Below are positions 24,101-50,858 of a stretch of 60,932 nucleotides of DNA, piece after piece. The DNA is from Sulfuricurvum sp. (lineage in GTDB: Bacteria; Campylobacterota; Campylobacteria; Campylobacterales; Sulfurimonadaceae), in NCBI RefSeq assembly GCF_030691015.1, contig NZ_JAUYFF010000011.1:1-60932 (forward strand), in the 5' to 3' direction. The translations under genes were made by a program, and so were the position numbers. Position 1 is the first letter of the stretch, and each line of letters opens with the position of its first letter. The notes beneath the pieces were generated by a model. The model did no database searches and was not told the origin of the DNA. It worked only from the letters and a program-made list of their open reading frames with translations.

Positions 24101-24657
24101 ACGCGATCAACTATACCCTATCATCCGAAGTGGAAAACATCGAGGACGGTTCCACTGCCATCTTCATCGGAAAAGTCGAAACGATCACGAAAAAGATGTC
24201 GAAAAAAGGGTCAATGTTCGGACTTGTGAGTCTGATGGATTTCCACGGCAATATCGAAGTGATGCTCTTTAGTGACAGAGTCGATCAGCTCGAAGCGATG
24301 GATCTCGATGAACCGATAGCGTTCAAGGTCAAAGTCACCCACACCGAGATGTTCACCCGCATCAGTGTCACGAAGATTATGACCCTCAACGAAGCGAAAA
24401 AAGAGGCGAAAAAGGTAGAAACCAAAATCGTCGAAAACCTCCCTCCTCAGGAGCCGTTGCAACTGCGCATCCGCCTCAGCGACAACCTCGAAGCGTTAGA
24501 GAAACTCTACACCCTCGTCCGCCGTCATCCGGGACGCCGTGAGATCAAACTTACCATCGTCTCGAAACTTGCTGATGTAGTGATCGATTCGGCGATACGG
24601 GTGGATAATAAGGTGATTGAAGAGTTAAGTGCGTTGGAAGATGTGGATGTAATTTAA
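21103..24657 (+). CDS. dnaE: DNA polymerase III alpha subunit
   Basis: The replicative polymerase catalytic subunit, 1184 residues, full length for DnaE1. An N-terminal PHP domain starts FTHLHLHTEYSLLDGA. The palm carries the catalytic aspartates in PDIDMDF (D420, D422, matching E. coli D401/D403), with GPGRGSAAGSLVAY just before it and HAAGVVIS later. The tandem helix-hairpin-helix and OB regions follow (NRIEPQKVNKRVIECIIKAGG; then STAIFIGKVETITKKMSKKG). Its last four bases overlap the convergent SIR2-STAND gene. Confidence 0.98.
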   Translation: MSTVPPFTHLHLHTEYSLLDGANKISALASRVKELGMTSVAMSDHGNMFGAIDFYQQMRGAGLKPIIGMEAYIHNGEDLGDKTIKQRFHVCLFAKNEAGYKNLMYLSSQAYINGFYYFPRINKQLLRENCEGIICTSACLQGEVNWHLNTNSERNVKNGALGYDEAKRIALEYKEIFGDDFYMEIMRHGIADQLFIDEQVIRISQETNIKLIATNDTHYTYAGDAQYHEAFMCIGMNKLYDDPKRMRHSVHEFYIKSPEQMARLFADIPEALYNTQEIVDKCQLELKLGNPTPPNFKFTTEYALEEGLTIEEDSEYFIHRCRIGLELRLEHVPEARHQEYRDRLEFEMQVINQMKFPGYMLIVWDFVREAKRMGIAVGPGRGSAAGSLVAYSLEITDIDPMKYDLLFERFLNPERVSMPDIDMDFMQARRGEIIDYVVRKYGREQVAQIITFGSLLAKGVIRDVARVLEMPLSQADMMAKLIPDELGITLNGKTKGGEFKPGAFQKEPKIQELVESDPQIARVWEFSKKLEGLKRNAGMHAAGVVISNEPLWKKTPIYKPSGEETFVTQYSLNYLEDIDLIKFDFLGLKTLDVIDNAIKLIRKRYDVEVNWHKIDENDPKVYEIIQSGDTIGMFQIESSGMQDLNKRLKPSSFEDLIAVLALYRPGPMESGMLDDFIERKHGRKKIFYPFEEVSFDALKDTLEPTYGMIVYQEQVMQIVQTIGGMSLGGADIVRRAMGKKKIEEMQKYNKEFSEGAVKQGLEYKKASELFDLIEKFAGYGFNKSHSAAYAMVTFQTAWLKTYYPQEFMAALLTSEKDNTDKVVKYIDEAKRMKIFLGAPDINHSQLEFSAINKDGQDQILFGLGAIKGVGEAAVESILEARSEGEFKDIQDFTNRIEPQKVNKRVIECIIKAGGLDHFGYSRRALLEQVETLVETAKKGSSLKKDAQFSLFGDDEEVTAVELSLKNMDEFDLKTLLDFEKDTLGFYVSGHPLDNFREQIDAINYTLSSEVENIEDGSTAIFIGKVETITKKMSKKGSMFGLVSLMDFHGNIEVMLFSDRVDQLEAMDLDEPIAFKVKVTHTEMFTRISVTKIMTLNEAKKEAKKVETKIVENLPPQEPLQLRIRLSDNLEALEKLYTLVRRHPGRREIKLTIVSKLADVVIDSAIRVDNKVIEELSALEDVDVI

Positions 24658-27614
24658 TCCTTGCAATATCTCCCTTTTTTATTATAAGGAAGTTTTTGTT
24701 CTTTTTTAATTTTTTGTTCAATATCATTTAAATGGTTTTTATATTTGTATAAATCTGGATGGGTATAATCTAAACTTTCTAGAATTTCTACTGCTTTTTT
24801 TGCTGTGATTAATGCTTGTGTACATTGTTTATGTTGTTCATACAAGTATGAAAGGTTAAAATAGGTAAGAGCGGTGTCTGGATGTTTTTCGCCTAGAAGC
24901 TCTTGCTGAGTATTTAATGCTTTTTCATAGAATATATGAGCCTTTTTATTTTCTCCTATATCATGATACAACGCAGCTAAGCTATTGTAGCTTTGAGCAG
25001 TGTCAGGATGTTTTTCTCCAAATGTGTCTTCTCTAATTTTTAGTGCTTTTTCATAGAGAGGAAGTGCTTTTTTATATTCTTTCAAAGATTTATAAACTGA
25101 AGCTAAATTGTTATAGTTGTTGGCAATATGAGGATGGGTTTTCTCTAATAATTCTTCTCGAATTTTTAATGCTTTTTCAAGTAAGGGAATTGCAATTTTA
25201 TGCTCATTCATGCTGTGATATAACGTACCAAGATTATCGTAAGAACTAGCAACATATGGAGTTATTATTCCTAAGAAATCTTCTCGAATTTTTAATACTT
25301 TTTTATGAAGAGTAAGTGCTTTTTGATGATCCTTCATATTTTGATGCAATACAGCTAAGTTGTTGTAAGTTTGAAGAGTATCAAAATGTCTTTCTCCTAA
25401 TGTTTTTTCTTGAATTTCTAATGCTTTTTCAAATAAAAAGAATGCATTTTTTAATTCCCCAAGACCTTTATATAAAACTCCTTCTAGATTGTAATTTTTT
25501 GCAACTTCTACAGAGTTTTCTCCAAATACCTGTTTACGTAATATTTCTGATTGCATCTGTATTTCAAGAGATTTTGAATAATTTCCTGTTGAAAAGTACA
25601 GAAATGTAAGTGAATCCAAAACTCCAGCAATGTGATTGTCTTTATTACTACTGTAAAGAGATAAAAGAGAGTCAATGATGGGAATAAATATTAGTTCATA
25701 GTTTGGAATTATAATAGCGTCGTCAGGGTGAATATACGATGCGATAGCATCGAGTATAGGTGTTGCTTTAGTATAGGATAGAGGATAATTATCCCAAATG
25801 AATGTTTTTACAATTTGATGAAGTTTATAACTATTCTCTTTTTTTGTCAGCCATCCGCGTTGAACGAGTTTAGCTAAATTTCTTTTTGTATTTACATCTG
25901 TAAGAGATAGCAATAATTTTTCTTCTTCGATTTCAATAGATGGAAATGTAGAAAGCTGTTGCAGAAGAAGTTTTAAATCGGGGTTTTGTTCTTCTTCAAA
26001 TTGCCGTTTAAATCGTTGTTCAAGATGTATGTTGAAACTTTTTTCGTCATGCGCTTCAATTTTTCCAATTTGACCACTTTTGATATTTTCTCTGAGTTCT
26101 TCTAATGTGAGATAACCCGATGCAAGTGTTTTCGCCGTGAGATAAATGAATAAAGAATGATTATCTAGATATTTGAGAATATCATCGATGTTCTCATCGG
26201 TAGAATAGTAACTAACAAAAAGGGCTCTTGCATCTTCATCTGAAAGCACTTCAAGATTTAGACTATATTTACTTTCTAAATCGCCGCGTCGTGTTGTAAT
26301 CAGAAGGTGAAAATTTGAGTTAAGAGCTTTTATTTTTTCAAAATCTTCACGATTGTATAGATTGTCTAGTAAAAGTAGATTTTTAGTTTTTAGGCGTTGA
26401 AGTTTGGTGATAATAGATTCAAGGTTATCATTTTCAGTTAGAGCAAATCGTTCTTTGAATTTGATGCGGAATAGTTCTTCAATAGATGTTTTTTCATCAG
26501 AAAATTCTAAAAAAGCAATGTTGTCATATCGTTCTTTGTTTCTGTGTAAATATTCATAAGAGAGTTCACTTTTTCCGATACCACCAATACCGTTGACGAT
26601 ATATACCATCCCTTCATTTGTGAGAGTATCTTCTAGTTTTTTTAATTCATCTACGCGTCCTAAAAAATTTTCATTTCTAGGAGGCAGGCTTGTTAAATAA
26701 TCTGCATTATTTTTAGTAGGAACTGAAGTAATGGATGAAAGTCTTTCTATTGATTCACTGGTGGTGGGTATTAATGATTTGATTTTATCGATTAAAGGTT
26801 GACCGTAATCATCAAAGAAAATGGGAGTTATTTTTCCTTTTAACTTTTTTGGTAATGAAGTACCATTACGTAGTAAAACATAGTGTTCACTCGAATTACC
26901 TTCAAAAATAGCACAGATTTTTTCGAGTTCATTAACAAAAAAATCATCGTCTAAGCTATATCCGATAAATAGAAAGCTTTTACTTGCTAAGAATGTTAGT
27001 AATGCAGTATATGCGGCTTTAAATTCGCTATTTGCATTATTGTCATAGAGTTTGTTATAACTTTCAGTAGTTAAAACTAAATTATCGATATGCTCAATAT
27101 GACCATGTAAATGCCATACAGTTGGTTTTAAAACACCATCTCGTAAAGCTTTACCTTGCTCACTTATGGATTGTATATCCCAATATGCTGTATCAGAAGG
27201 GCTATTTGATGCCCAATGCAAAACTTTGTCGTAATTGGTGGTGATGATGAGGTCTTGTCCAAGTTCCCAAATGGATTTTGGAAGTGCAAGTGATTCAAGA
27301 TCGATTTCAGATGAATGTTTATCAAATATTTCTTTTAGTAGATCGTTAAATGATTGTTTAGAAGGATAAAACTTCTTTATTTTATCTGCTACTTCGAGGT
27401 AATCAAATTTTGAAAGTCCAAAGTAGGCATTAATCAAGTTGGCTTCTGCTGAATGACCAGATTTTTCTAAATTGTAAGCAAATTTTTTTAGTAGTTCAGT
27501 CCAGCTTGGAAATAATTGATTGCCATTTTTATCTTTGATCTCCATCGATACACCTGCACCGACAAAAGGGATCACTTTGTTTTCACGAAGCAGTCTTTTG
27601 AGCTCTTCTTCCAT
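24654..27614 (-). CDS. SIR2-NB-ARC(STAND)-TPR protein, probable anti-phage defence sensor/effector
   Basis: The protein is 986 residues. An N-terminal SIR2-like domain (1-285) has FVGAGVS (19-23), TTNYDK (125-130) and HLHGH (168-172), the NAD-handling motifs of defence SIR2 proteins. A linker ending ENFLGRVDEL leads to an NB-ARC-type STAND ATPase: P-loop NGIGGIGKSEL (K348), Walker B LLLLDN (D417) and LLITTRR (438-443). From about residue 700 come six or seven 42-residue TPR units of the kinesin-light-chain type (EKALKIRE, HPDTAQSYNSLA). By analogy with Avs and other SIR2-STAND systems, the TPRs would sense an invader and the SIR2 domain would deplete NAD+ (inference). The gene is clearly AT-richer than dnaE, suggesting transfer. 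Confidence 0.85.
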   Translation of the reverse strand: MEEELKRLLRENKVIPFVGAGVSMEIKDKNGNQLFPSWTELLKKFAYNLEKSGHSAEANLINAYFGLSKFDYLEVADKIKKFYPSKQSFNDLLKEIFDKHSSEIDLESLALPKSIWELGQDLIITTNYDKVLHWASNSPSDTAYWDIQSISEQGKALRDGVLKPTVWHLHGHIEHIDNLVLTTESYNKLYDNNANSEFKAAYTALLTFLASKSFLFIGYSLDDDFFVNELEKICAIFEGNSSEHYVLLRNGTSLPKKLKGKITPIFFDDYGQPLIDKIKSLIPTTSESIERLSSITSVPTKNNADYLTSLPPRNENFLGRVDELKKLEDTLTNEGMVYIVNGIGGIGKSELSYEYLHRNKERYDNIAFLEFSDEKTSIEELFRIKFKERFALTENDNLESIITKLQRLKTKNLLLLDNLYNREDFEKIKALNSNFHLLITTRRGDLESKYSLNLEVLSDEDARALFVSYYSTDENIDDILKYLDNHSLFIYLTAKTLASGYLTLEELRENIKSGQIGKIEAHDEKSFNIHLEQRFKRQFEEEQNPDLKLLLQQLSTFPSIEIEEEKLLLSLTDVNTKRNLAKLVQRGWLTKKENSYKLHQIVKTFIWDNYPLSYTKATPILDAIASYIHPDDAIIIPNYELIFIPIIDSLLSLYSSNKDNHIAGVLDSLTFLYFSTGNYSKSLEIQMQSEILRKQVFGENSVEVAKNYNLEGVLYKGLGELKNAFFLFEKALEIQEKTLGERHFDTLQTYNNLAVLHQNMKDHQKALTLHKKVLKIREDFLGIITPYVASSYDNLGTLYHSMNEHKIAIPLLEKALKIREELLEKTHPHIANNYNNLASVYKSLKEYKKALPLYEKALKIREDTFGEKHPDTAQSYNSLAALYHDIGENKKAHIFYEKALNTQQELLGEKHPDTALTYFNLSYLYEQHKQCTQALITAKKAVEILESLDYTHPDLYKYKNHLNDIEQKIKKEQKLPYNKKGRYCKD
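24800..25530 (-). repeat. 126-bp coding repeats of the TPR region
   Basis: Near-identical segments recur about every 126 bp on the minus strand, encoding EKALKIRE followed by HPDTAQSYNSLAALY-type helices. They are TPR units, not a CRISPR array or intergenic repeats. Confidence 0.75.
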
Positions 27615-27778: not shown

Positions 27779-28003
27779 ATGGCTGAATACCGATCCATTA
27801 TCACCATCAACCCTCAAATTCGTTCAGGTAAACCAACGATTCGTGGTATGCGCATTAGCGTGTATGACATCCTCGATATGCTCGCAAACAAGATGAGTTT
27901 CGCCGATATTATCGAAGATTTCCCTGAGCTCACCGAAGAGGACATTCTCGCGGCACTTTCCTATGCGGCTGATAAAGAACACAAAGTTTCGATCTGCGCA
28001 TGA
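27779..28003 (+). CDS. DUF433 family antitoxin
   Basis: The 74-residue protein has the DUF433 pattern: ITINPQIRSGKPTIRGMRISVYDILDM, then a winged helix (SFADIIEDFPELTEEDILAALSYA). DUF433 proteins are the VapB45-like antitoxins of DUF5615 toxins and usually bind their own promoter. The last four bases overlap the toxin start (ATGA). Confidence 0.88.
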   Translation: MAEYRSIITINPQIRSGKPTIRGMRISVYDILDMLANKMSFADIIEDFPELTEEDILAALSYAADKEHKVSICA

Positions 28004-28335
28004 AGCTTTTGTTTGACCAGAATCTCTCGTATAGATTGGTCGTAAAAGTGAGTGATGTTTTCCCACAATCGGTTCATGTTGCCGCATTGGGTCTCGATAA
28101 AGCCTCTGATTATGACGTTTGGGAATTTGCCAAAACGAACGGGTTTGTTATCGTGACCAAAGACTCTGATTTCAACGATCTCACCACCTATCACGGATTT
28201 CCCCCTCATATTATTTGGCTTCGTTCGGGCAATAGTTCTGTTGATAAAAATGCAGAACTTTTATTGGGGTATGCGGATCGGATTAAAATGATGATTTTGA
28301 GTAACGAGACGGGGATTGTCGAAGTCATCGGGTAA
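28000..28335 (+). CDS. DUF5615 PIN-like toxin
   Basis: The 111-residue PIN-like protein begins MKLLFDQNLSYRLV, with the first acidic residue in FDQNLS. VIVTKDSDF carries the second acidic cluster, and IIWLRSGNSS is typical of the family. Such proteins are predicted ribonuclease toxins paired with DUF433 antitoxins. It is translationally coupled to the antitoxin. The pair lies next to the SIR2-STAND gene, so the region may be a small defence cluster. Confidence 0.88.
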   Translation: MKLLFDQNLSYRLVVKVSDVFPQSVHVAALGLDKASDYDVWEFAKTNGFVIVTKDSDFNDLTTYHGFPPHIIWLRSGNSSVDKNAELLLGYADRIKMMILSNETGIVEVIG

Positions 28336-42486: not shown

Positions 42487-43890
42487 TTATCGTATCCATT
42501 GTATCAAAAAGGTGTTTAAACTATAAAAAGCCGCTCCGAAACCGAGCGTTCCGAGGACAAAATAGAGGCTGAAACGGGTTTTGAGAAGATCAAAAAAGAT
42601 CTTCCATCCCACCGCTTGGATGGTGAGGATAAACTGCACCGCACCGCCGATACTCCCTGCCAATGCCAAACCTGCCGCCCCCATCGATTGCATCAAAATA
42701 ACCGAGAAAATCAGATTGATCACGAGGGAGATGACGGCAATCTTCGCCGCTTTGAGATGTTTGTGCTGGGCGTAGAGGTACATCGAAAAGAGCTTTGCCA
42801 ACCCAAAAGGGATAAGTCCCACCATATACATTTGCAAGACGCTTGCGGTATTGAGGGTATCTTCGATATCAAACGCTCCCCGCTCAAACAACAGCCAAAT
42901 GATCGGTTCCGCGAGCAAAATCCCCCCTAAAACGGAGAGACCCAGCAGGGCGTTGAGAAGCCAAAACGATTTGTGGAGGTTCTCGAATGCGAGTTCGTTA
43001 TTGCCGTTATTGATCGCTTTGGCGATTTTGGGAAACAGCGCCGTAGTGATAGCGAGGGCGATGATGGCGAAAGGGAGCTGAAAAATACGGTTGGCGTAAA
43101 AGAGATACGATACCGAACCCGCCGCTAAAAACGAGGCGAGAGAGGTGTCAATAAACGAGGCGATTTGCGCCGTGGAGTTCCCGACGACCGAGGGGATAAA
43201 GAGCGATTTGAATTTCGATTCCTCTTCTTTGACATCTTTGGTTTTACGGTATTTCCATCCGCCGACTAACACTTTCATCAGCCCTTGTTGACGTATAGCG
43301 TAGAGGTGGGTAGCCACTTGGAGAAGCCCTCCGATGAGGATGGAGAAACTGAGGGCGTAAACGATGGTCTGAGGGTCGGAGTTGGTAAAGAGGATCAGGG
43401 CGACGATCATCGCGATATTGAGCCAGACGGTCGAAAAAGCAGTGGTGAAAAAATGCTCTTTATGTTGTAACAGTGAGCCTAAAAAGGTGACGATAAAGAT
43501 GAGATCCAAATACCAAAAGTTGATCGCGGTCAGCGGAGCGGTTTTGGAGATAAGATCATGCCCCCAATCCCACGCCAACATTTTGGTAAAAAACCCGGGG
43601 AAGAGGGTGACGAGAAAAGAGAGGAAAACGATAAACACCATAAAACGGATGAAGATAGCGACGGCAAAGACACTTTTTTGATTCGAGGCGATGTAAGAGG
43701 GCATAAAACTTTGGGTAAACGAACCCTCCGCGAAGATACGGCGGAAGAGATTCGGGAATTTAAACGCCATTAAAAAGATATCACTCCACATATTGGCACC
43801 CAACACGGACGTCATCAGAATATCGCGTCCCAGACCCGTTACACGGGAGATAAGGATACCAAAAGAGTTGGAGAATATCGATTTAAACAT
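42487..43890 (-). CDS. murJ: Lipid II flippase MurJ
   Basis: The 467-residue MOP-superfamily protein has the typical start SNSFGILISRVTGLGRDILM and FRRIFAEGSFTQSFMPSY, and around 12-14 hydrophobic helices. It moves lipid II across the inner membrane. It is the first gene of the murJ-cysS-msbA run. Confidence 0.95.
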   Translation of the reverse strand: MFKSIFSNSFGILISRVTGLGRDILMTSVLGANMWSDIFLMAFKFPNLFRRIFAEGSFTQSFMPSYIASNQKSVFAVAIFIRFMVFIVFLSFLVTLFPGFFTKMLAWDWGHDLISKTAPLTAINFWYLDLIFIVTFLGSLLQHKEHFFTTAFSTVWLNIAMIVALILFTNSDPQTIVYALSFSILIGGLLQVATHLYAIRQQGLMKVLVGGWKYRKTKDVKEEESKFKSLFIPSVVGNSTAQIASFIDTSLASFLAAGSVSYLFYANRIFQLPFAIIALAITTALFPKIAKAINNGNNELAFENLHKSFWLLNALLGLSVLGGILLAEPIIWLLFERGAFDIEDTLNTASVLQMYMVGLIPFGLAKLFSMYLYAQHKHLKAAKIAVISLVINLIFSVILMQSMGAAGLALAGSIGGAVQFILTIQAVGWKIFFDLLKTRFSLYFVLGTLGFGAAFYSLNTFLIQWIR

Positions 43891-43924
43891 AGTTTATATC
43901 AAGCCCTGAAATAGATTTGATGCA

Positions 43925-43930
43925 ATTTTA
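43925..43930 (-). promoter_or_regulatory. Probable -10 box (gcTAAAAT) of the murJ operon
   Basis: On the minus strand GCTAAAATTGC places TAAAAT 34 bases before the murJ ATG, the same type of element as at efp and fapA copy 2. Confidence 0.4.
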
Positions 43931-43972
43931 GCTGATATGGGATTAAAAGTCATCGGAGTAGGGTATTTCGTC

Positions 43973-43993
43973 ATTCCCGACTTGATCGGGAAT
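43973..43993. repeat. Dispersed palindromic repeat (ATTCCCGA...TCGGGAAT)
   Basis: Perfect 8-bp arms with a 5-base centre, in the context GTCATTCCCGACTTGATCGGGAATCC. I know this type as a widely dispersed intergenic repeat in many bacterial genomes. It marks the left side of the AT-rich island. Confidence 0.6.
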
Positions 43994-44140
43994 CCAGTTT
44001 TTGAAAGGGTAGTTATGTGAATAGTCTAATCAAATTATTGGTAAAAATTCGATGTATTTTTAAAAAAATTATTAAATTTAAATTTTTATATATATAATGT
44101 TTTTTTTCGATGATTTTTATCAATATAAAAAAGGATAATT

Positions 44141-44446
44141 ATGACTAAAATTATAAAATTCACTGATGGACTCGATGTTGAGATTGAAATCAATGAAAAT
44201 CAAGCGCATGAAATTGCTGATCATTCTGTCATCAATGCATCAATAGATCAAGTTCAAACTTTTTTAAAAAAAGTAATGCAACCTTTTAGTAATACATACA
44301 AAGAGCTAAGTAAAGATATGAATATTGACTCTACCAAAATATCTATAGGTGTAAAAGTTGGGATAGAGGGGAATTTTATTTTGGCTAAAAGTAGTGCTGA
44401 GGCAAATATTCAAGTTGAAATGACATTGAGACCAATCAATGCTTAA
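44141..44446 (+). CDS. Trypco1-like (CU044_2847-type) small protein
   Basis: The 101-residue protein is predicted all-cytoplasmic. It starts with beta-strand-like MTKIIKFTDGLDVEIEIN, has a central helix (IDQVQTFLKKVMQPFSNTYKEL) and ends in a strand-rich segment (ISIGVKVGIEG, IQVEMTLRP). Short proteins of this shape form the trypsin-co-occurring domain 1 group, encoded beside or fused to trypsin-like peptidases and STAND ATPases in conflict systems. The family call rests on pattern and context, not an alignment. AAAGGA precedes the ATG, and its end overlaps the next gene by 8 bases. Base composition is strongly AT-rich. Confidence 0.6.
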   Translation: MTKIIKFTDGLDVEIEINENQAHEIADHSVINASIDQVQTFLKKVMQPFSNTYKELSKDMNIDSTKISIGVKVGIEGNFILAKSSAEANIQVEMTLRPINA

Positions 44447-47126
44447 TTCTGTTTTTTTAATTTCTGGTCCTGATCAACGCTGTATAGGCACAGGTTTCGT
44501 AATTGATCAAAACGATGACGGTGTTTTTGTTGCAACATGTGGTCATGTAATAAATAATTGTACACAGGGAGTTTATGTCGAGAATTATCTAGCTGAAATT
44601 ATTCTCAATAAATACGATGATGGACTAGATTTAGGAGTTTTATTTGTTAAAGGGCTGCAACAGACTCCTTTCTTACTTTCCGAAGAGTCAGATACTCAAA
44701 AAGTCAAAGTAATAGGCTATTCTCGATTTATGGATAAATCTAAGAAGGAAACTATTTATAATATTCCGATTAAAACTGATGTTCAAATAATTACAAATAG
44801 CTTTACAGTCAATACAATTAAATTAAGTCCAAAAGAACCAATTATAAGCGGATACAGTGGTTCTCCAGTTGTATGTGAAGATACAGAAAAGGTCATTGGA
44901 ATTGTTGCAATACAAGAGGGAAAAGAAACAAATTATGCGATTGGTATCAAACATCTTTTAGAAGTTTTTTCTGTAAAGCAGTCACATTTGAATACTGAAA
45001 AAACAGTAAGCTCAAAAAAAAGGCTGAGCACTCAGTTAGACTCAACAAAATACGCTGTAGTGACTAACTTATTTAAAACTAATCTTGATGTTGCATTAAA
45101 GTCATTTTCAACGCAACCAACAATCTGGATTGAGCCTAGATTACATACAATAGAGGAAGAATCCAATAATGCAGTGGATGAGGATACAAAGGTAGATATT
45201 AAAAATATATTGAATAATCCAAAATCTTATGTAATTAAATCACGTCAGCAATATGGGTTAACTTCGTTATCTCATTACCTAATATATGAAGCATGGACGA
45301 ATCCTAAACCATCTTTTTGGTTGTATTTAGATTCTAATGAGTTAAAACCTCATAGGTCAGAAGTCCAAAAGCTTGTTAATAAAAAGCTGATGGCACTAAA
45401 TCTTACGATTGAAGATGTTGAATGTGTTATTTTAGATGAATTTTCTAGTAATCTTGAAAATGCAAATGAAATATTAAATAAAACAAGTGATTATTTTGAA
45501 AACATACCCCTCATTGTGATGTTGACACATGTTGATAATCCCTTATTAAATGAATCAATTACAACACCTTCTAATAGAAATTTTACTGTGTTAAATCTGT
45601 GGGCATTACCAAGGTCTGATATTCGTGAAGTAATAAATAAGTACAACGAGAGAAGGTATATTGGTGATGAAAACAAAATTTTAACAAGAATCGTCTCTGA
45701 CTTAGATGTTTTAAATATACCGAGAACCCCTCTTAATTGTATTACGATACTAAAGATTTATGAAATAGATTTTGATGATAGCCCAGTAAATCGCACAGAA
45801 ATGATAAAAAGAGTTTTATTTCTTTTGTTTAATATTGATGATATTCCAAAGTATAAAACTAGACCTGACTTAAAAGACACAGAATTTGTTCTAGGGTATT
45901 TTTGTGAACAATTACTAATTGAAAACTCAGTTTATTTCACGAGAGAGGTTTTTTTGAGTAAGTTAGATAATTTTTGTTCTGCAAGTGAAATTGATCTTGA
46001 TATACATGTGATTTTCGATGTATTGTACGAAAATAATATTATTGTCTCAAGAGGAAATCGATTCTGTTTTAGGTTTACATATTGGATTTATTATTTTGCA
46101 GCTCATCGAATGCATCATAGTCCTGATTTTGCTAAATTTATTCTTGAAAACATGCGTTATGCTTCTTATCCAGAATTAATAGAGTTTTATACTGGTATTG
46201 ACCGAAGACGAGATGATGCAATACATACACTTACAAGCGATATTCAAAAAACTCGCCTACTCGTAGAAAGTAAATGTGCTTTTCCAACAAGTTTTAATAT
46301 ATATGATATTGCACAATGGAAACCCTCAGATGATTCAGTTGAAAAAATGCATGAAGAAGTTACTGATACTGTATTGAACTCAAAATTACCTGACATCATA
46401 AAAGATGAATTTGCAGATCAGTCCTATTGTAGAACTCGTCCATTACATCAAGAAATTCATACAATCCTTGAAGAATATTCATTTTTGCGTTTGATGAAAG
46501 GTATAAAAGCAGGTGCTAAGGCATTGAGAAATAGTGACTATTCTGATCCTATAATTCGACATGCATTATTAGAAGAAATTTTACTTAGTTGGGAACAAAT
46601 AACAAAAATCTTAGTTGCATTATCACCTATTCTATCTAAAGATGGATACGCTACATTAGAAGGTGCTACTTTTGTATTGGATGGTAATTTTAGTGGTTCA
46701 AAAGAAGAAAAATTTAATCAAATTGTTCAGTTATTGCCAAGTAATGTGGTCAATTGGTATAAGGATGATTTATTTTCAAAAAAAATGGGTTCTTTATTGT
46801 ATAAGCATATTGAAAAAAAGCCAAATAGCTTTATGCAACATACATTGAATCTCTTAATCGCCAATAAGAGACCAAAAAACTGGGATAAACATATAGAAAG
46901 CTATATAGAAAATGAAAATAAGAATTCGTTTTACTTACTTGATATATATAACCAATTACGAGCAGAATATAAATTTAGTTTTGCATCAGATAGTGAATTA
47001 AAATCTATTGAAAGATTAATGAAAATGACAGTTGCTAAACATCAATTAGGGATGAAAAAGCCTAGTATGACAATTATCAAAAAAGTTTCTGATGATATTC
47101 TACCTACTCGACATATTGATTTATAA
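44439..47126 (+). CDS. Trypsin-like protease fused to a degenerate STAND-type NTPase, candidate defence protein
   Basis: The 895-residue protein has an N-terminal trypsin-fold protease (1-180) with all three catalytic residues: His36 (ATCGHVI), Asp64 (DGLDLGVL) and Ser140 (GYSGSPVV). From about 225 it resembles a STAND-type module. VIKSRQQYGLTSLSHYL (265-281) is at the P-loop position but lacks the Gly-Lys-Thr core (GLT in place of GKT), while CVILDEF (329-335) is a good Walker B. LIVMLTHVD and ALPRSDIREVI follow. The rest (about 480-895) is helical with no family I recognise. I infer a sensor that releases protease activity when triggered. It overlaps the Trypco1-like gene by 8 bases; both are AT-rich and foreign-looking. 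Confidence 0.72.
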   Translation: MLNSVFLISGPDQRCIGTGFVIDQNDDGVFVATCGHVINNCTQGVYVENYLAEIILNKYDDGLDLGVLFVKGLQQTPFLLSEESDTQKVKVIGYSRFMDKSKKETIYNIPIKTDVQIITNSFTVNTIKLSPKEPIISGYSGSPVVCEDTEKVIGIVAIQEGKETNYAIGIKHLLEVFSVKQSHLNTEKTVSSKKRLSTQLDSTKYAVVTNLFKTNLDVALKSFSTQPTIWIEPRLHTIEEESNNAVDEDTKVDIKNILNNPKSYVIKSRQQYGLTSLSHYLIYEAWTNPKPSFWLYLDSNELKPHRSEVQKLVNKKLMALNLTIEDVECVILDEFSSNLENANEILNKTSDYFENIPLIVMLTHVDNPLLNESITTPSNRNFTVLNLWALPRSDIREVINKYNERRYIGDENKILTRIVSDLDVLNIPRTPLNCITILKIYEIDFDDSPVNRTEMIKRVLFLLFNIDDIPKYKTRPDLKDTEFVLGYFCEQLLIENSVYFTREVFLSKLDNFCSASEIDLDIHVIFDVLYENNIIVSRGNRFCFRFTYWIYYFAAHRMHHSPDFAKFILENMRYASYPELIEFYTGIDRRRDDAIHTLTSDIQKTRLLVESKCAFPTSFNIYDIAQWKPSDDSVEKMHEEVTDTVLNSKLPDIIKDEFADQSYCRTRPLHQEIHTILEEYSFLRLMKGIKAGAKALRNSDYSDPIIRHALLEEILLSWEQITKILVALSPILSKDGYATLEGATFVLDGNFSGSKEEKFNQIVQLLPSNVVNWYKDDLFSKKMGSLLYKHIEKKPNSFMQHTLNLLIANKRPKNWDKHIESYIENENKNSFYLLDIYNQLRAEYKFSFASDSELKSIERLMKMTVAKHQLGMKKPSMTIIKKVSDDILPTRHIDL

Positions 47127-47163
47127 ATAAAAGAAAAGTGGACAGGCTACTTTAATACTTTCC

Positions 47164-47269
47164 CCGTTCGTGGTGAGCTCAAGGAAACATCGCTTCGCGA
47201 GCGGTACCCTTGTTTTGTCGAACCATGAACTTGATTATAAGAACCCTTCGACAGGCTCAGGGCGAACGG
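47164..47269. repeat. Dispersed imperfect inverted repeat, right side of the island
   Basis: CCGTTCG (47164-47170) and CGAACGG (47263-47269) are the ends of a roughly 106-bp imperfect inverted repeat. It contains CGCTTCGCGAGCG, a GTTCGTGG/CCATGAAC pair, and CCTTCGACAGGCTCAGGGCG, a sequence I know as a common dispersed bacterial repeat. It differs from the left-hand repeat, so these are not direct-repeat attachment sites. Confidence 0.6.
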
Positions 47270-47317
47270 AAATTCAGACATAAAATAAATTTTACGCAAT
47301 TTTAACCGATATGTGAT

Positions 47318-47323
47318 TAAAAT
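47318..47323 (+). promoter_or_regulatory. Probable -10 box (gatTAAAAT) of the fapA2-ruvA operon
   Basis: TAAAAT lies 25 bases before the chosen ATG at 47349. AAAGGA at 47336-47341 is the matching ribosome site. Confidence 0.45.
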
Positions 47324-47348
47324 AGGGGCAATTACAAAGGATAGAAAG

Positions 47349-49250
47349 ATGGGGTTGCTTAGTAAAGACGGTGAAACTGTGACAACTGTAGCGTCGATAA
47401 CGCCGATAATTGTACGTACTTCGAACGTAGCCAAAGAGCTTTTACAAGTTTCACTTACCTATAAAGTCCCCGTCAATTCCCTTGACTTCCATCTTCTCGG
47501 TACTCAGACCTTTACGAAATCATCCGTAGAAGGATCAGGAGAGGATTGGGTAGAACTTACTTCCGATGAGGTGAAAGATCTCAAAGAAGATGATTTCTTA
47601 AACCCGAAATTTGAACTCAAACAAGTCCATGAAATCGAAATTTACTCTATTACCGAATCTAACCCGCTGGAATCGATTGATATGTCAATCGGTGGAAATG
47701 CGACGCTGTGCAAAATTTATTTGACCATCAAAGCGGGAAGTGTCGCACATTATTACGAAACGTTTCAAGAAGATTTTGTCCATTTGATAAACAAAAAGAA
47801 GCTTCGAGCCAACCTGATGATCGGGGTATTCGACTCGGTGATGGTTCAAAATTTCGGAGAACTTTTAGCTAAAATCCGTGTTCAGGGGACGTATCGTTTT
47901 GAGACGCAGGAACGCTATCTCGTAGCGCAAGGGTATGAGCCGATAGAGACGGTGAATGATAAATTGATTCTCCATTATGAAAGCAAGCGTCAAAATATGG
48001 ACGAGCACGGAAGGGTTGATTACGCAAAACGCGGGTATGTGATGAGTGCGGTTAAAGATGAGTTACTCATCGAATATATCAAGGCAAAACGTGGGGAAAA
48101 CGGGAGAAATTGTCGGGGAGAATTTATCCTACCTAAAGAACCGATCATAAAATTTGAACCTACCTTTACCACCGGAGAGAAAATCACGGTGATTGATACC
48201 CCAAAAAGCATTGAATACCGAGCCGGAGCAGGGGGGTACGTCACCTTCGAGGGTGGAGTTTATAATATCAATACCGAAGTCGAAGTGACGGAGATCAGTT
48301 TTAAAACGACGGGTTCGATTGATACCCAGCTCGATGCCGATGTCTCCATCAACGTTAAAGAGAAAGATTCGATGAAAGATGCGATCGGGCAGGGGATGGA
48401 GGTGACGGTTCACTCCATTAATATCGAAGGTAACGTCGGTCCTAATGCTAAAGTAACCGCGAAAAAAGCGACGGTTGACGGGCAAGTGCACCAAAGTGCC
48501 ATTATCCGTGCGGATGAGCTCACGATTAATGTCCATAAAGGGACGGCGTATGGCAAAGACGTTCATATCACCCGACTCGAACATGGGAGTGTCGAAGCCG
48601 ATAAAGTGACGATTACCCAAGCGACGGGGGGAAAAATTCGTGCCCGTGAGATTATCATTGAAGTGCTGGGCTCTCACGTCAAAATGGCGGCTTCTCATCG
48701 GATAGAGATTCGTAAGATTGTAGGGGGGGAGAATCAATTGATTATTGATCCGATGATCAACGAATCGGATGAAAATCTCCATGAACGTTCCGATCAGATG
48801 GCTCAGGTTAAGAATTCGATCCGTGATATTAAAAAAGAGTTGGAAGGATATGAGCAAACGTGGCGGGAAAACACCCCTGCTATGGATGATTTAAAACGAA
48901 AACTGACCCATTATAAAGCAAACGGTATTAAAATGCCGATTGCATTTGTTCAGAAATATCAACAATATCAGCTGTTTCGAGAGAAACTTGAAGCGCTTCG
49001 AAATGAGCTAAAAAGCAAAGAAGATCAGTACGCGTGGCTGGCTGAAAAACATACGGCGCTTCAAGCAGGGATTTTTGAAGCACGTATTATCAATCATGAT
49101 CGTTGGCACAATCACAATGAGATTATTTTTAAACTGATCGATCCCCACGTCGATGTCTTTTATATCCCCTCCGATAACTCCGAAGAGAGAGTGTTAGGGT
49201 TGTATCAAGATGAAGACGGTGCATTTTCAATTAAGGTTATGTCGCAATGA
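47349..49250 (+). CDS. FapA / DUF342 family protein, copy 2
   Basis: The 633-residue protein starts at ATG 47349, chosen because AAAGGA precedes it by 7 bases; the in-frame GTG at 47313 has no such site. It has the same order as copy 1: an N-terminal alpha/beta region, the DUF342 beta-helix (about 290-480; GSIDTQLDADVSINV, GNVGPNAKVTAKKATVDGQV) and a coiled coil (about 490-570). A DUF342 gene next to ruvA and murJ is also the arrangement I recall in Campylobacter jejuni, so this is the ancestral copy and the one at 8-9.8 kb is likely the extra. Its stop overlaps the ruvA start (ATGA). Confidence 0.85.
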   Translation: MGLLSKDGETVTTVASITPIIVRTSNVAKELLQVSLTYKVPVNSLDFHLLGTQTFTKSSVEGSGEDWVELTSDEVKDLKEDDFLNPKFELKQVHEIEIYSITESNPLESIDMSIGGNATLCKIYLTIKAGSVAHYYETFQEDFVHLINKKKLRANLMIGVFDSVMVQNFGELLAKIRVQGTYRFETQERYLVAQGYEPIETVNDKLILHYESKRQNMDEHGRVDYAKRGYVMSAVKDELLIEYIKAKRGENGRNCRGEFILPKEPIIKFEPTFTTGEKITVIDTPKSIEYRAGAGGYVTFEGGVYNINTEVEVTEISFKTTGSIDTQLDADVSINVKEKDSMKDAIGQGMEVTVHSINIEGNVGPNAKVTAKKATVDGQVHQSAIIRADELTINVHKGTAYGKDVHITRLEHGSVEADKVTITQATGGKIRAREIIIEVLGSHVKMAASHRIEIRKIVGGENQLIIDPMINESDENLHERSDQMAQVKNSIRDIKKELEGYEQTWRENTPAMDDLKRKLTHYKANGIKMPIAFVQKYQQYQLFREKLEALRNELKSKEDQYAWLAEKHTALQAGIFEARIINHDRWHNHNEIIFKLIDPHVDVFYIPSDNSEERVLGLYQDEDGAFSIKVMSQ

Positions 49251-49810
49251 TTATTGGATTAGAGGGAATTATTGAGTACAAAGAACCGACATCGGTTCAT
49301 TTGAATGTCAACAGTGTCATTTACGAGGTATTTATCTCCTTGCATACGTACAGTTCAATCGGTTCGGAAAAGGCACGCTTGCATATTCACCATGTAATCC
49401 GTGAAGACGCTCAACAGCTGTACGGATTTGCCCACAAAAGTGAAAAAGTTCTCTTCGAGGGGATGCTAAAAATCAACGGAATCGGACCAAAAGCTGCCCT
49501 TGCTATCTGTTCGACCTTTACGCCGGAGCAGTTTGCGGGTATTATTTCATCTAAAGATGTCAATGCGTTGAAAAAAGTTCCGGGGATCGGACCTAAAAGT
49601 GCGGCACGGATTATGGTCGAATTGGCCGGTTTCGATGCCATTCTTTTAAATACGGCTCCATCGGCAAATTCTGCAACAATGGAAGCGATGATGGCGTTAG
49701 AGTCACTCGGATTCAAAAAAGAGCAGATTGCCAAGGCACTAAGCCACTCTATCGCAACCGACACGCCGACGCTGGTCAAAGAAGCGTTAAAACAACTTCA
49801 AAAACTTTAA
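49247..49810 (+). CDS. ruvA: Holliday junction DNA helicase subunit RuvA
   Basis: At 187 residues it has an N-terminal OB domain (MIIGLEGIIEYKEPTSVHL), two helix-hairpin-helix motifs (LKINGIGPKAALAI and LKKVPGIGPKSAARIMVEL) and a C-terminal RuvB-interacting domain (EAMMALESLGFKKEQIAKAL). It binds four-way junctions and targets RuvB. The overlap with the FapA gene indicates co-translation. Confidence 0.97.
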   Translation: MIIGLEGIIEYKEPTSVHLNVNSVIYEVFISLHTYSSIGSEKARLHIHHVIREDAQQLYGFAHKSEKVLFEGMLKINGIGPKAALAICSTFTPEQFAGIISSKDVNALKKVPGIGPKSAARIMVELAGFDAILLNTAPSANSATMEAMMALESLGFKKEQIAKALSHSIATDTPTLVKEALKQLQKL

Positions 49811-49820
49811 AGGATACTCA

Positions 49821-50858
49821 TTGAAATTAGCTATTTTATTCGGCGGAGCCAGTTATGAACACGAAATCAGCATTGTAAGTGCTATCACGGTCAAAGAAAA
49901 GCTAAGCCGTTTTGAACTCAGTTTTATTTTTTGCGATCAGGATCATAAATTTTATCTCATTGACGGTGCCAAAATGAAAGCGGTCACTTTTTCACGCGGA
50001 GAACACCGTAAGATGCCTCAAATTTTCCTTACCAACGGCGGATTTGAGCAACGGGGACTTTTCGGTTCAAAAAAACATGAGATGCCTGTTCTTAACCTGA
50101 TCCACGGCGGAGACGGTGAAGACGGCTCAATCGCCTCACTGATGGATTTTTTCCATATCCCTTTCATCGGTCCTCGCAAAGAGGCATCGATGCTCAGTTT
50201 CGATAAACATTACACCAAATGGCTTGCCGCTTCACTCGGTGTCAAGACACTTCCGTATGAGATTTTACGTAAAGAAGATAAGAGAGTTATCGCCACAGCC
50301 TATCCGTTTATCGTAAAACCTGCCCGTTTGGGAAGCTCGATCGGTGTGAGTATCGTACGTGAAGCCTCAGAGCTTGATTACGCACTCGATGTCGCTTTTG
50401 AATTTGATAACGTCCTTTTGATCGAGCCGTTTATCGCGGGAGTCAAAGAGTACAATCTCGCAGGCTTCAGCGCACGCGGCGAGATGACCTACTCGATTGT
50501 CGAAGAGCCTCAAAAAGCGGAATTCCTCGATTTTGAGAAAAAATATCTCGATTTTTCCCGTTCGGGAAATGTTGAACATGCGGCGGTGAGCGATGCGTTG
50601 GTTGCACAGTTGCGCGAATCGTTCACTAAAATCTATTTGCCTCTGTTTGAAGGGGCATTGATCCGTTGCGATTTCTTCGAGATTGAGGGTGAAGTGTATC
50701 TCAACGAGGTCAACCCGATCCCGGGATCGATGGCGAATTATTTGTTTGAAGATTTTAGTGCTTCTATCCAAAAGCTTCTGGGTGCATTGCCCGATAAAAA
50801 AGCGATTCGGGTCAATTACGACTATATCCACTCTATTTCCCAAGCCAAAGGGAAATAA
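49821..50858 (+). CDS. ddl: D-alanine-D-alanine ligase
   Basis: The 345-residue ATP-grasp enzyme makes the D-Ala-D-Ala end of peptidoglycan stems. Landmarks are LFGGASYEHEISIVSA, NLIHGGDGEDGSIASL, PFIVKPARLGSSIGVSIV and EVYLNEVNPIPGSMA (metal ligands). It sits 10 bp after ruvA and two genes before murF, whose substrate it makes. Confidence 0.96.
   Translation: MKLAILFGGASYEHEISIVSAITVKEKLSRFELSFIFCDQDHKFYLIDGAKMKAVTFSRGEHRKMPQIFLTNGGFEQRGLFGSKKHEMPVLNLIHGGDGEDGSIASLMDFFHIPFIGPRKEASMLSFDKHYTKWLAASLGVKTLPYEILRKEDKRVIATAYPFIVKPARLGSSIGVSIVREASELDYALDVAFEFDNVLLIEPFIAGVKEYNLAGFSARGEMTYSIVEEPQKAEFLDFEKKYLDFSRSGNVEHAAVSDALVAQLRESFTKIYLPLFEGALIRCDFFEIEGEVYLNEVNPIPGSMANYLFEDFSASIQKLLGALPDKKAIRVNYDYIHSISQAKGK

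Follow-up and report, generated by a model that had tools for sequence, protein, structure and literature searches.

In phage HK022 the bacterial attachment site (attB) lies in the torS-torT divergent promoter and the phage supplies a substitute promoter, as reported in PMC6814406. Also related to the locus described here are the CGTC-tagged repetitive extragenic palindromes (REPs), which the account in PMC3733652 defines by a CGTC at one end, a palindromic stem and a CCA tail, and whose superfamily is apparently without a dedicated transposase. The DNA analysed in this work is a stretch of 60,932 nucleotides from Sulfuricurvum sp. (contig NZ_JAUYFF010000011.1; hereafter the window), in which an AT-rich island of ~3.4 kb lies between the divergent core genes murJ and fapA-ruvA. 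Within the genus, the ~85-bp putative divergent promoter region between these genes is a hotspot in which five genomes carry AT-rich cargoes of at least three kinds. On balance, the site is considered a promoter/attachment-site hotspot for foreign DNA, which in the window probably holds a horizontally acquired candidate anti-phage operon of two genes, one encoding a Trypco1 protein and the other a trypsin-like protease fused to a STAND-like core.

Occupancy and boundaries of the murJ-fapA junction

The interior of the island, between its boundary repeats, has a GC content of 30.6%, against 44.5% for the window outside the island, and consists of two overlapping plus-strand genes only. To compare the junction across the genus, 41 genomes including that of the window (G000) were used, and the junction was readable in 37 (unread in G003, G022, G062 and G063). 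It is empty in 30 genomes, occupied by an island in five (G000, G004, G016, G024 and G027; for G004 the left end only, after which the contig stops) and by an element with an integrase in two (G013 and G014). The distance between murJ and fapA is 82–94 bp in 27 of the 30 empty sites, among them G029 (87 bp), G019 (94 bp), G060 (86 bp) and G061 (92 bp). The outlying distances in G010 (136 bp), G023 (135 bp) and G021 (57 bp) reflect a different starting point of the fapA alignment. A preliminary description, made from the letters of the window, had reported an AT-rich island that interrupts an ancestral murJ-fapA junction and had proposed a comparison of this junction among relatives. Both the composition and the comparison bear this out, as close relatives do not all carry these genes and the cargo varies among close species.

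The islands differ in content. The window island encodes the Trypco1 and trypsin/STAND-like proteins, while that of G027 encodes a ParE toxin, a small partner gene and a DUF3800 protein with a candidate PADLOC match to PDC-M04A (3.3e-10). A DUF3800 protein similar to that of G027 is present in G004, a 355-residue protein of no confident family in G024, and in G016 the motif copies are separated by 219 bp in which no gene was found. As murJ of G027 shares 90–94% DNA identity with that of the window genome, species as close as these have come to differ in cargo.

What recurs at the ends from genome to genome is an imperfect direct repeat, which was absent from the preliminary description. In the window its two copies are identical at 31 of 44 positions and, within the core, at 24 of 27. 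A 27-base degenerate pattern matched only these two places in the 2.33-Mb genome (up to 3 mismatches; no match in the control), and a shorter 23-base pattern gave one extra match at 3 mismatches and one control match. A single conserved motif, with the consensus ATTTTAACCGATATGTGATTAAAATAG subject to small changes, is present in each empty site displayed. The four islands readable at both ends have an intact motif ahead of fapA, starting at the same point with TAAAATAAATTTTACG(C/T), and all five have a variant motif next to murJ. This variant was found in 5 of the 41 genomes and hardly differs among them, even in G016, which has both murJ and fapA placed far from the others. By eye, the motif consists of an inverted pair ATTTTAA(C/T)C around 7 bp with a TAAAAT box on each strand, and a consensus scan found a minus-strand TAAAAT resembling a -10 box, identically positioned in both copies of the window. 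The motif is probably the divergent promoter of murJ and fapA.

The two elements with integrases end in the same motif. In G013 its 21-bp core, TTAACCGATATGTGATTAAAA, is present at both ends of 32.5 kb of DNA that includes phage-type replication-initiation and HNH genes and a tyrosine integrase at the end adjoining fapA. A further motif copy of G013, close to where another contig stops, connects murJ with the same end of the element, which would allow for tandem copies or a circle. The integrase gene of G014 likewise ends beside fapA, the murJ side being found on a second contig. Both integrases match phrog_1 (2.5e-52 and 6.8e-54). A phage-type integrase therefore recombines in this very motif.

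The flanking genes gave conflicting trees. In the murJ tree, G000, G024, G027 and G004 form one clade (100/99) that is sister to the empty-site genome G030. In the fapA tree, built without G004 (no fapA in view), the empty-site genomes G017 and G020 fall together with G000, G027 and G024 (96/90), and G030 is placed elsewhere. This conflict makes the junction a recombination breakpoint, and the island appears to have travelled together with a murJ flank. The empty site of G030 consists of the murJ leader of the carriers followed by an intact motif, an arrangement compatible both with a junction that had yet to receive an insert and with loss by deletion between the repeats. At the same junction, murJ of G006 (L033) is highly divergent, with 51.6% identity and a very long branch.

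The Trypco1 and trypsin/STAND-like genes

The first gene of the window island belongs to Trypco1 by Pfam PF19493 (7.8e-10; 39.7 bits against a cut-off of 24.6) and to the NCBIfam CU044_2847 family (2e-10; 41.2 bits against a cut-off of 23), and overlaps the second by 8 bases. The 895-residue product of the second gene comprises a protease (approximately residues 1–184) with an intact triad of H36, D64 and S140, a core at approximately 250–440 that reaches 31.0 bits for nSTAND_NTPase4 (cut-off 27), and a helical C-terminal half. Because the canonical Walker A is absent, the protein is named STAND-like and not a canonical STAND NTPase. In low-confidence structural models, residues 1–184 match Deg/HtrA proteases (Z 20.2, 171 residues aligned, root-mean-square deviation 2.9), and the modelled core (residues 205–560) has the NACHT of NLRP3 as its top match (Z 10.7, 219 aligned, deviation 4.9), with NOD2 and ORC/Cdc6 AAA+ at Z 9.7. 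In PADLOC the protease part weakly matches RT-Protease_XI (3.1e-11), and a four-sequence profile found no sequence match in the PDB at E 0.01.

Homologs of the STAND-like protein were found in Oceanobacter (51%), Shewanella (49%) and Desulfobacterales (41%), in a search that reaches close relatives only. Among 397 sampled genomes of the phylum, the window genome included, the sole other match covers 75 residues (E 9.7e-4), the set being a sample from which genus members may be missing. No homolog was present among 50,697 phage records, and 72,556 plasmid records yielded three that are distant or partial. A foreign origin of the two genes is probable, given homologs in these other lineages and rarity within the phylum sample. 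The Shewanella homolog is preceded by a Trypco1 gene (Pfam 3e-9) and the Oceanobacter homolog by an open reading frame (ORF) of 101 residues, similar by eye. The N-terminal domain is a calcineurin-like phosphoesterase in the Desulfobacterales homolog and DUF4062 in a Chryseobacterium plasmid homolog, located between type I restriction genes. As this domain differs among homologs, the N-terminal effector appears exchangeable. A Pseudomonas mandelii plasmid (L152) encodes a partial homolog of the C-terminal part (query residues 543–891), ~4.4 kb from the cyclase gene of a cyclic-oligonucleotide-based antiphage signalling system (CBASS). A VMAP ternary conflict system was considered for the two genes and rejected, as MoxR ATPase, vWA and VMAP genes are absent from the two-gene island and its direct neighbours are murJ and fapA.

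Table 1. Positions of the island and its flanking features in the window
Feature	Position	Strand	Basis
murJ (lipid II flippase), left core flank, divergent	42487..43890	-	start codon 43890; Pfam MurJ 3.8e-97; ORF
Left boundary, variant copy of the murJ-fapA motif	43912..43955	+	core 24/27 identical to right copy
CGTC-tagged REP palindrome; tag left, CCA tail right, tail side towards island	43970..43996	+	
Trypco1 (trypsin-co-occurring domain 1) protein, 101 aa	44141..44446	+	Pfam PF19493; NCBIfam CU044_2847 family
Trypsin-like protease/STAND-like fusion, 895 aa	44439..47126	+	Pfam Trypsin_2 and nSTAND_NTPase4 above cut-off; models; fold comparison
106-bp imperfect inverted repeat, right end of island	47164..47269	.	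folding; dispersal search
Right boundary, intact conserved murJ-fapA motif, probable divergent promoter	47286..47329	+	comparison with genus genomes
fapA (DUF342-type), first gene of right core flank	47349..49250	+	Pfam FapA_N 5.9e-17

Downstream of fapA lie what we take to be ruvA (49247–49810) and a ddl-like gene (49821–50858). Elsewhere in the window, a second AT-rich gene (24654–27614, minus strand, GC 0.31) encodes a SIR2-like domain (Pfam SIR2_2, 1.5e-25), an NB-ARC core (9e-10) and TPR repeats, and is likely a second STAND-type defence gene. The gene directly ahead of it is presumably dnaE, and beside it a DUF5615 PIN-like protein, of a toxin-antitoxin type, is encoded at 28000–28335 (plus strand).

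Proposed assembly of the island and alternative origins

If the motif serves both genes, an insert would be tolerated only where murJ and fapA each keep a copy. As the motif looks like the promoter of both, DNA that brings its own copy, as an attachment site does, could settle here. Initial entry was probably through recombination at the motif, either site-specific or by a single crossover. Later spread and change of cargo may have used murJ for homologous exchange on the left, with illegitimate or homologous joining on the right. Once acquired, the STAND-like protein would sense an invader via its helical C-terminal half and assemble, the assembled protein would activate its HtrA-like protease with Trypco1 as a partner, and growth of the infected cell would be stopped. 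By these domain assignments the window island is a candidate for anti-phage defence.

Several observations weigh against this interpretation. Neither integrase nor transposase was found in the islands of the five carriers (G004 being seen only in part), and the window island holds its two genes only, the integrases at the same site being those of G013 and G014. The boundary repeats of the window are imperfect and their arms unlike a simple attL/attR pair: divergence is on the left arm and the right copy is host-like throughout, where a simple integrase product would have a host-like left arm. Promoter-like sites in total do not exceed those of shuffled sequence (20 against 19.2), and the promoter role is deduced from the motif. 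For the cargo, nSTAND_NTPase4 falls below its cut-off in the four homologs scanned, and the canonical Walker A, GxxxxGK[ST], is present in none of five proteins, with [QE][YF]G[LA]T[STC]L in its place. The structural models, built from four sequences, have a mean predicted local distance difference test (pLDDT) score of only ~60. The DS8 anti-phage equivalog is matched in part (residues 227–559) at 42.1 bits, against a cut-off of 790, and a literature search for DS8, antiphage and STAND together found nothing.

A possible though less than likely alternative is that the junction is a tolerant site of neutral microdiversity, shaped purely by homologous recombination through short repeats and the core flanks, with no dedicated mobility. 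The conflict between the murJ and fapA trees and the lack of any mobility gene found in the islands are both consistent with this, as is the empty site of G030, which has the form that a deletion between direct repeats would leave. Small variable segments between short direct repeats are moreover common, at 10–18% in the species studied in PMC2884548. Against it, the integrases of two species recombine in the same motif, so that the site is not merely neutral, and the same left variant in G016, despite the placement of its murJ and fapA elsewhere, asks for movement of a whole unit.

The other repeats of the locus lead to a further alternative. The preliminary description had noted a perfect palindrome on the left of the island and a 106-bp inverted repeat on the right, had regarded both as dispersed, and had suggested them as the recombination substrate that makes the site permissive. 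Both are where they had been placed, and the right one has the size given. The left palindrome, ATTCCCGA-ctTGA-TCGGGAAT at 43973–43993, has 8 paired bases and lies within a CGTC tag, stem and CCA tail (cGTCATTCCCGACTTGATCGGGAATCCA, 43969–43996), which makes it a CGTC-tagged REP. It is dispersed, with two exact copies in the window genome and two with 3 mismatches (none for the reversed control). The right repeat, CCGTTCGT..GCGAACGG, is unique as a whole and recurs only in its right half, which has two further matches of ~30 bp and, at up to 3 mismatches, four places including the window. A 171-base stretch around it folds better than 200 of 200 shuffles (z -3.0, DNA parameters). Right-half copies at L264 (~6506) and L265 (~6506) each border a small AT-rich ORF (GC 0.32 and 0.27) and, like the window copy, have their AT-rich side at the CCTTCGAC end. 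The fourth copy (C4, 3 mismatches) has no GC step.

Strict REP copies are present in 33 of the 41 genomes (0–98 each; control 0), with only three in the window genome. As a general and sufficient cause of permissiveness the REPs were rejected: the G016 island has no left-end REP, REPs are present in 25 of the 30 empty-site genomes, and the repeats that bound the islands are a different pair. Nor does the evidence bear out the suggested role of the palindromes as recombination substrate. The three other relaxed copies of the window genome (G000:C12, C1 and C15) stand beside genes for a ParE toxin, a YaaC-like protein and a CAP12/Pycsar TIR effector, and G060:C63 (L162:1501-1931) holds six tandem REPs ~80 bp apart in one orientation.

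It is unlikely, yet worth weighing, that a REP was the landing pad, as target or product of insertion, with AT-rich cassettes entering beside the CCA tail and the promoter repeat being secondary. In four of the five islands a REP stands at a constant distance from the left motif. Further evidence came from the GC content over 1 kb on either side of each REP. In G030, GC is lower on the CCA side at 14 of 17 REPs (all 17 strict copies), with a mean absolute step of 0.088 against 0.034 for background and 0.040 for other intergenic points. The same polarity is present at 9 of 10 REPs in G027 (nine strict, one relaxed), 3 of 4 in G024 (of six copies) and all 3 in G000. No effect was found in G015 (4 of 9 tested, of 11), G003 (11 of 20, of 69) or G008 (11 of 19, of 45). 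The seven genomes pooled gave 55 of 82 (two-sided sign p 0.0026), or 41 of 65 without G030 (p 0.046). As the idea arose from data that included G000 and part of G030, these are not independent, and a split by REP core (28 of 38 against 23 of 44), made after the data had been seen, is a lead only. The preliminary description had proposed to test whether its repeats flank other variable islands. In keeping with this wider idea, REPs lie at borders of GC content, with polarity, above background in G030, G027, G024 and G000, though not in G015, G003 or G008.

For replication, 44 REPs with a GAC/AAC-type core from 12 other genomes were taken, leaving out the single copies of G035 and G061, which had already been seen. 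Two were dropped for short flanks (both in G025), giving 42. GC was lower on the CCA side at 26 (one-sided sign p 0.08), with a mean of +0.033 (Wilcoxon p 0.0097), and signed permutation gave 0 of 10,000 against both controls, which were taken irrespective of gene orientation. Steps above 0.08 occurred at nine REPs (21%, against 6.9% of background and 10.9% of intergenic points), and in eight of these the CCA side was the AT-rich one. The absolute step did not differ clearly from intergenic points (p 0.074), and the 11 REPs of G005 showed no large step. At 27 of the 42 REPs the tag-side gene points towards the palindrome, which may explain part of the polarity.

Inward-facing REP pairs also bracket single AT-rich ORFs, one of 1276 residues and no family in G012 (L311:4001-8074) and two in G030, encoding a TPR protein (L191:7001-8680) and a small ORF (L192:7001-7405). 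The second REP of the latter pair is one of the three polarity exceptions. Precedents for insertion are known, as dRS3 is an insertion target of phage Nf1 (reported in PMC3898611) and REPs are targeted by insertion sequences in three genera (reported in PMC3733652). Opposed to a REP landing pad are the G016 island without this REP, the null genomes, the post hoc core split, the lack of any identified recombinase, and the terminator-like score of the window REP on the plus strand, the region having three such sites where shuffles give 1.0. REP polarity at AT-rich borders is a pattern that is real but partial, and no proof of mechanism. That REPs in general are oriented borders or landing pads, with AT-rich cassettes on the CCA-tail side beside a core gene and sometimes closed by an inward-facing second REP, seems rather improbable. 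Should the polarity be upheld under better controls, it would give the REP superfamily a role, and if the border reading were true it would describe a REP-bounded cassette system for defence or orphan genes with no recombinase in the cassette.

An origin from an integrative mobile element exploiting the chromosomal dif/Xer system (IMEX), considered because the motif looks dif-like, with inverted 9-bp arms and a 7-bp centre by eye and an imperfect copy at the opposite end as for dif-integrated elements, was rejected as extremely improbable, since the insertion is not at the chromosomal dif: a separate dif-like site, resembling the Sulfurimonas dif as given in PMC2731167, exists in 35 of the 41 genomes (up to 3 mismatches; six without a match, several with more than one), and in G030 it is at C2:1120315, 380 kb from murJ-fapA at 1.50 Mb, with all sixteen 20-kb GC-skew means over 1.30–1.62 Mb, murJ-fapA included, negative and the change of sign falling between samples at 0.70 and 1.30 Mb.

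Relation to described systems

A promoter/attachment-site hotspot at murJ-fapA places one defence hotspot nearly to the base, with a testable reason for its position: the target looks like a promoter common to two core genes, and the four islands readable at both ends leave each gene a copy. It also adds a trypsin/STAND-like candidate with no canonical P-loop lysine and an N-terminal domain that varies among relatives. A literature search for a published Sulfuricurvum island or an analogue of a promoter attB gave general matches, such as PMC10121019 and PMC6814406.

As for HK022 in the latter report, the attachment site probably lies in a promoter region between two genes, and the element would bring a substitute promoter. 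In contrast to HK022, the islands of the window type have no integrase and the whole motif is copied at both ends. With the E. coli defence hotspots of PMC10121019 the locus shares low occupancy, exchanged defence cargo and, for some islands, unclear mobility. It differs from those described there in its lineage, in carrying one to a few genes with no integrase found, and in having ends that are copies of a putative promoter.

For the cargo, a Trypco1 gene directly adjoins a trypsin-domain protein, as in the Trypco1-trypsin conflict systems described in PMC7159879, whereas the VMAP/MoxR-vWA partner of those systems is lacking and the trypsin is fused to an nSTAND4-type core. The order of N-terminal effector, P-loop core and helical C-terminal half is that of STAND/Avs proteins such as Avs5 as presented in PMC12931631. 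Unlike Avs5, which according to that report needs the Walker A lysine, the window protein has a protease effector and belongs to a group in which GxxxxGK[ST] is found in none of five proteins.

The REP of the window has the CGTC tag, palindrome and CCA tail of the CGTC-REPs in PMC3733652 and the ATTCCC..GGGAAT core of the Neisseria dRS3 in PMC3898611. The dRS3 form is ATTCCC(N8)GGGAAT, whereas the window copy has a spacer of 9, N8 copies being present in relatives. What differs from the descriptions of CGTC-REPs and dRS3 in these two sources is the oriented association with AT-rich borders in some genomes, of which no report was found in the portions of the literature searched. The hotspot, the STAND-type defence candidate and the REP are each known in kind. 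What varies is that the motif is copied on either side of the cargo, that trypsin, Trypco1 and nSTAND4 are combined with no canonical P-loop lysine, and that the REP border is oriented.

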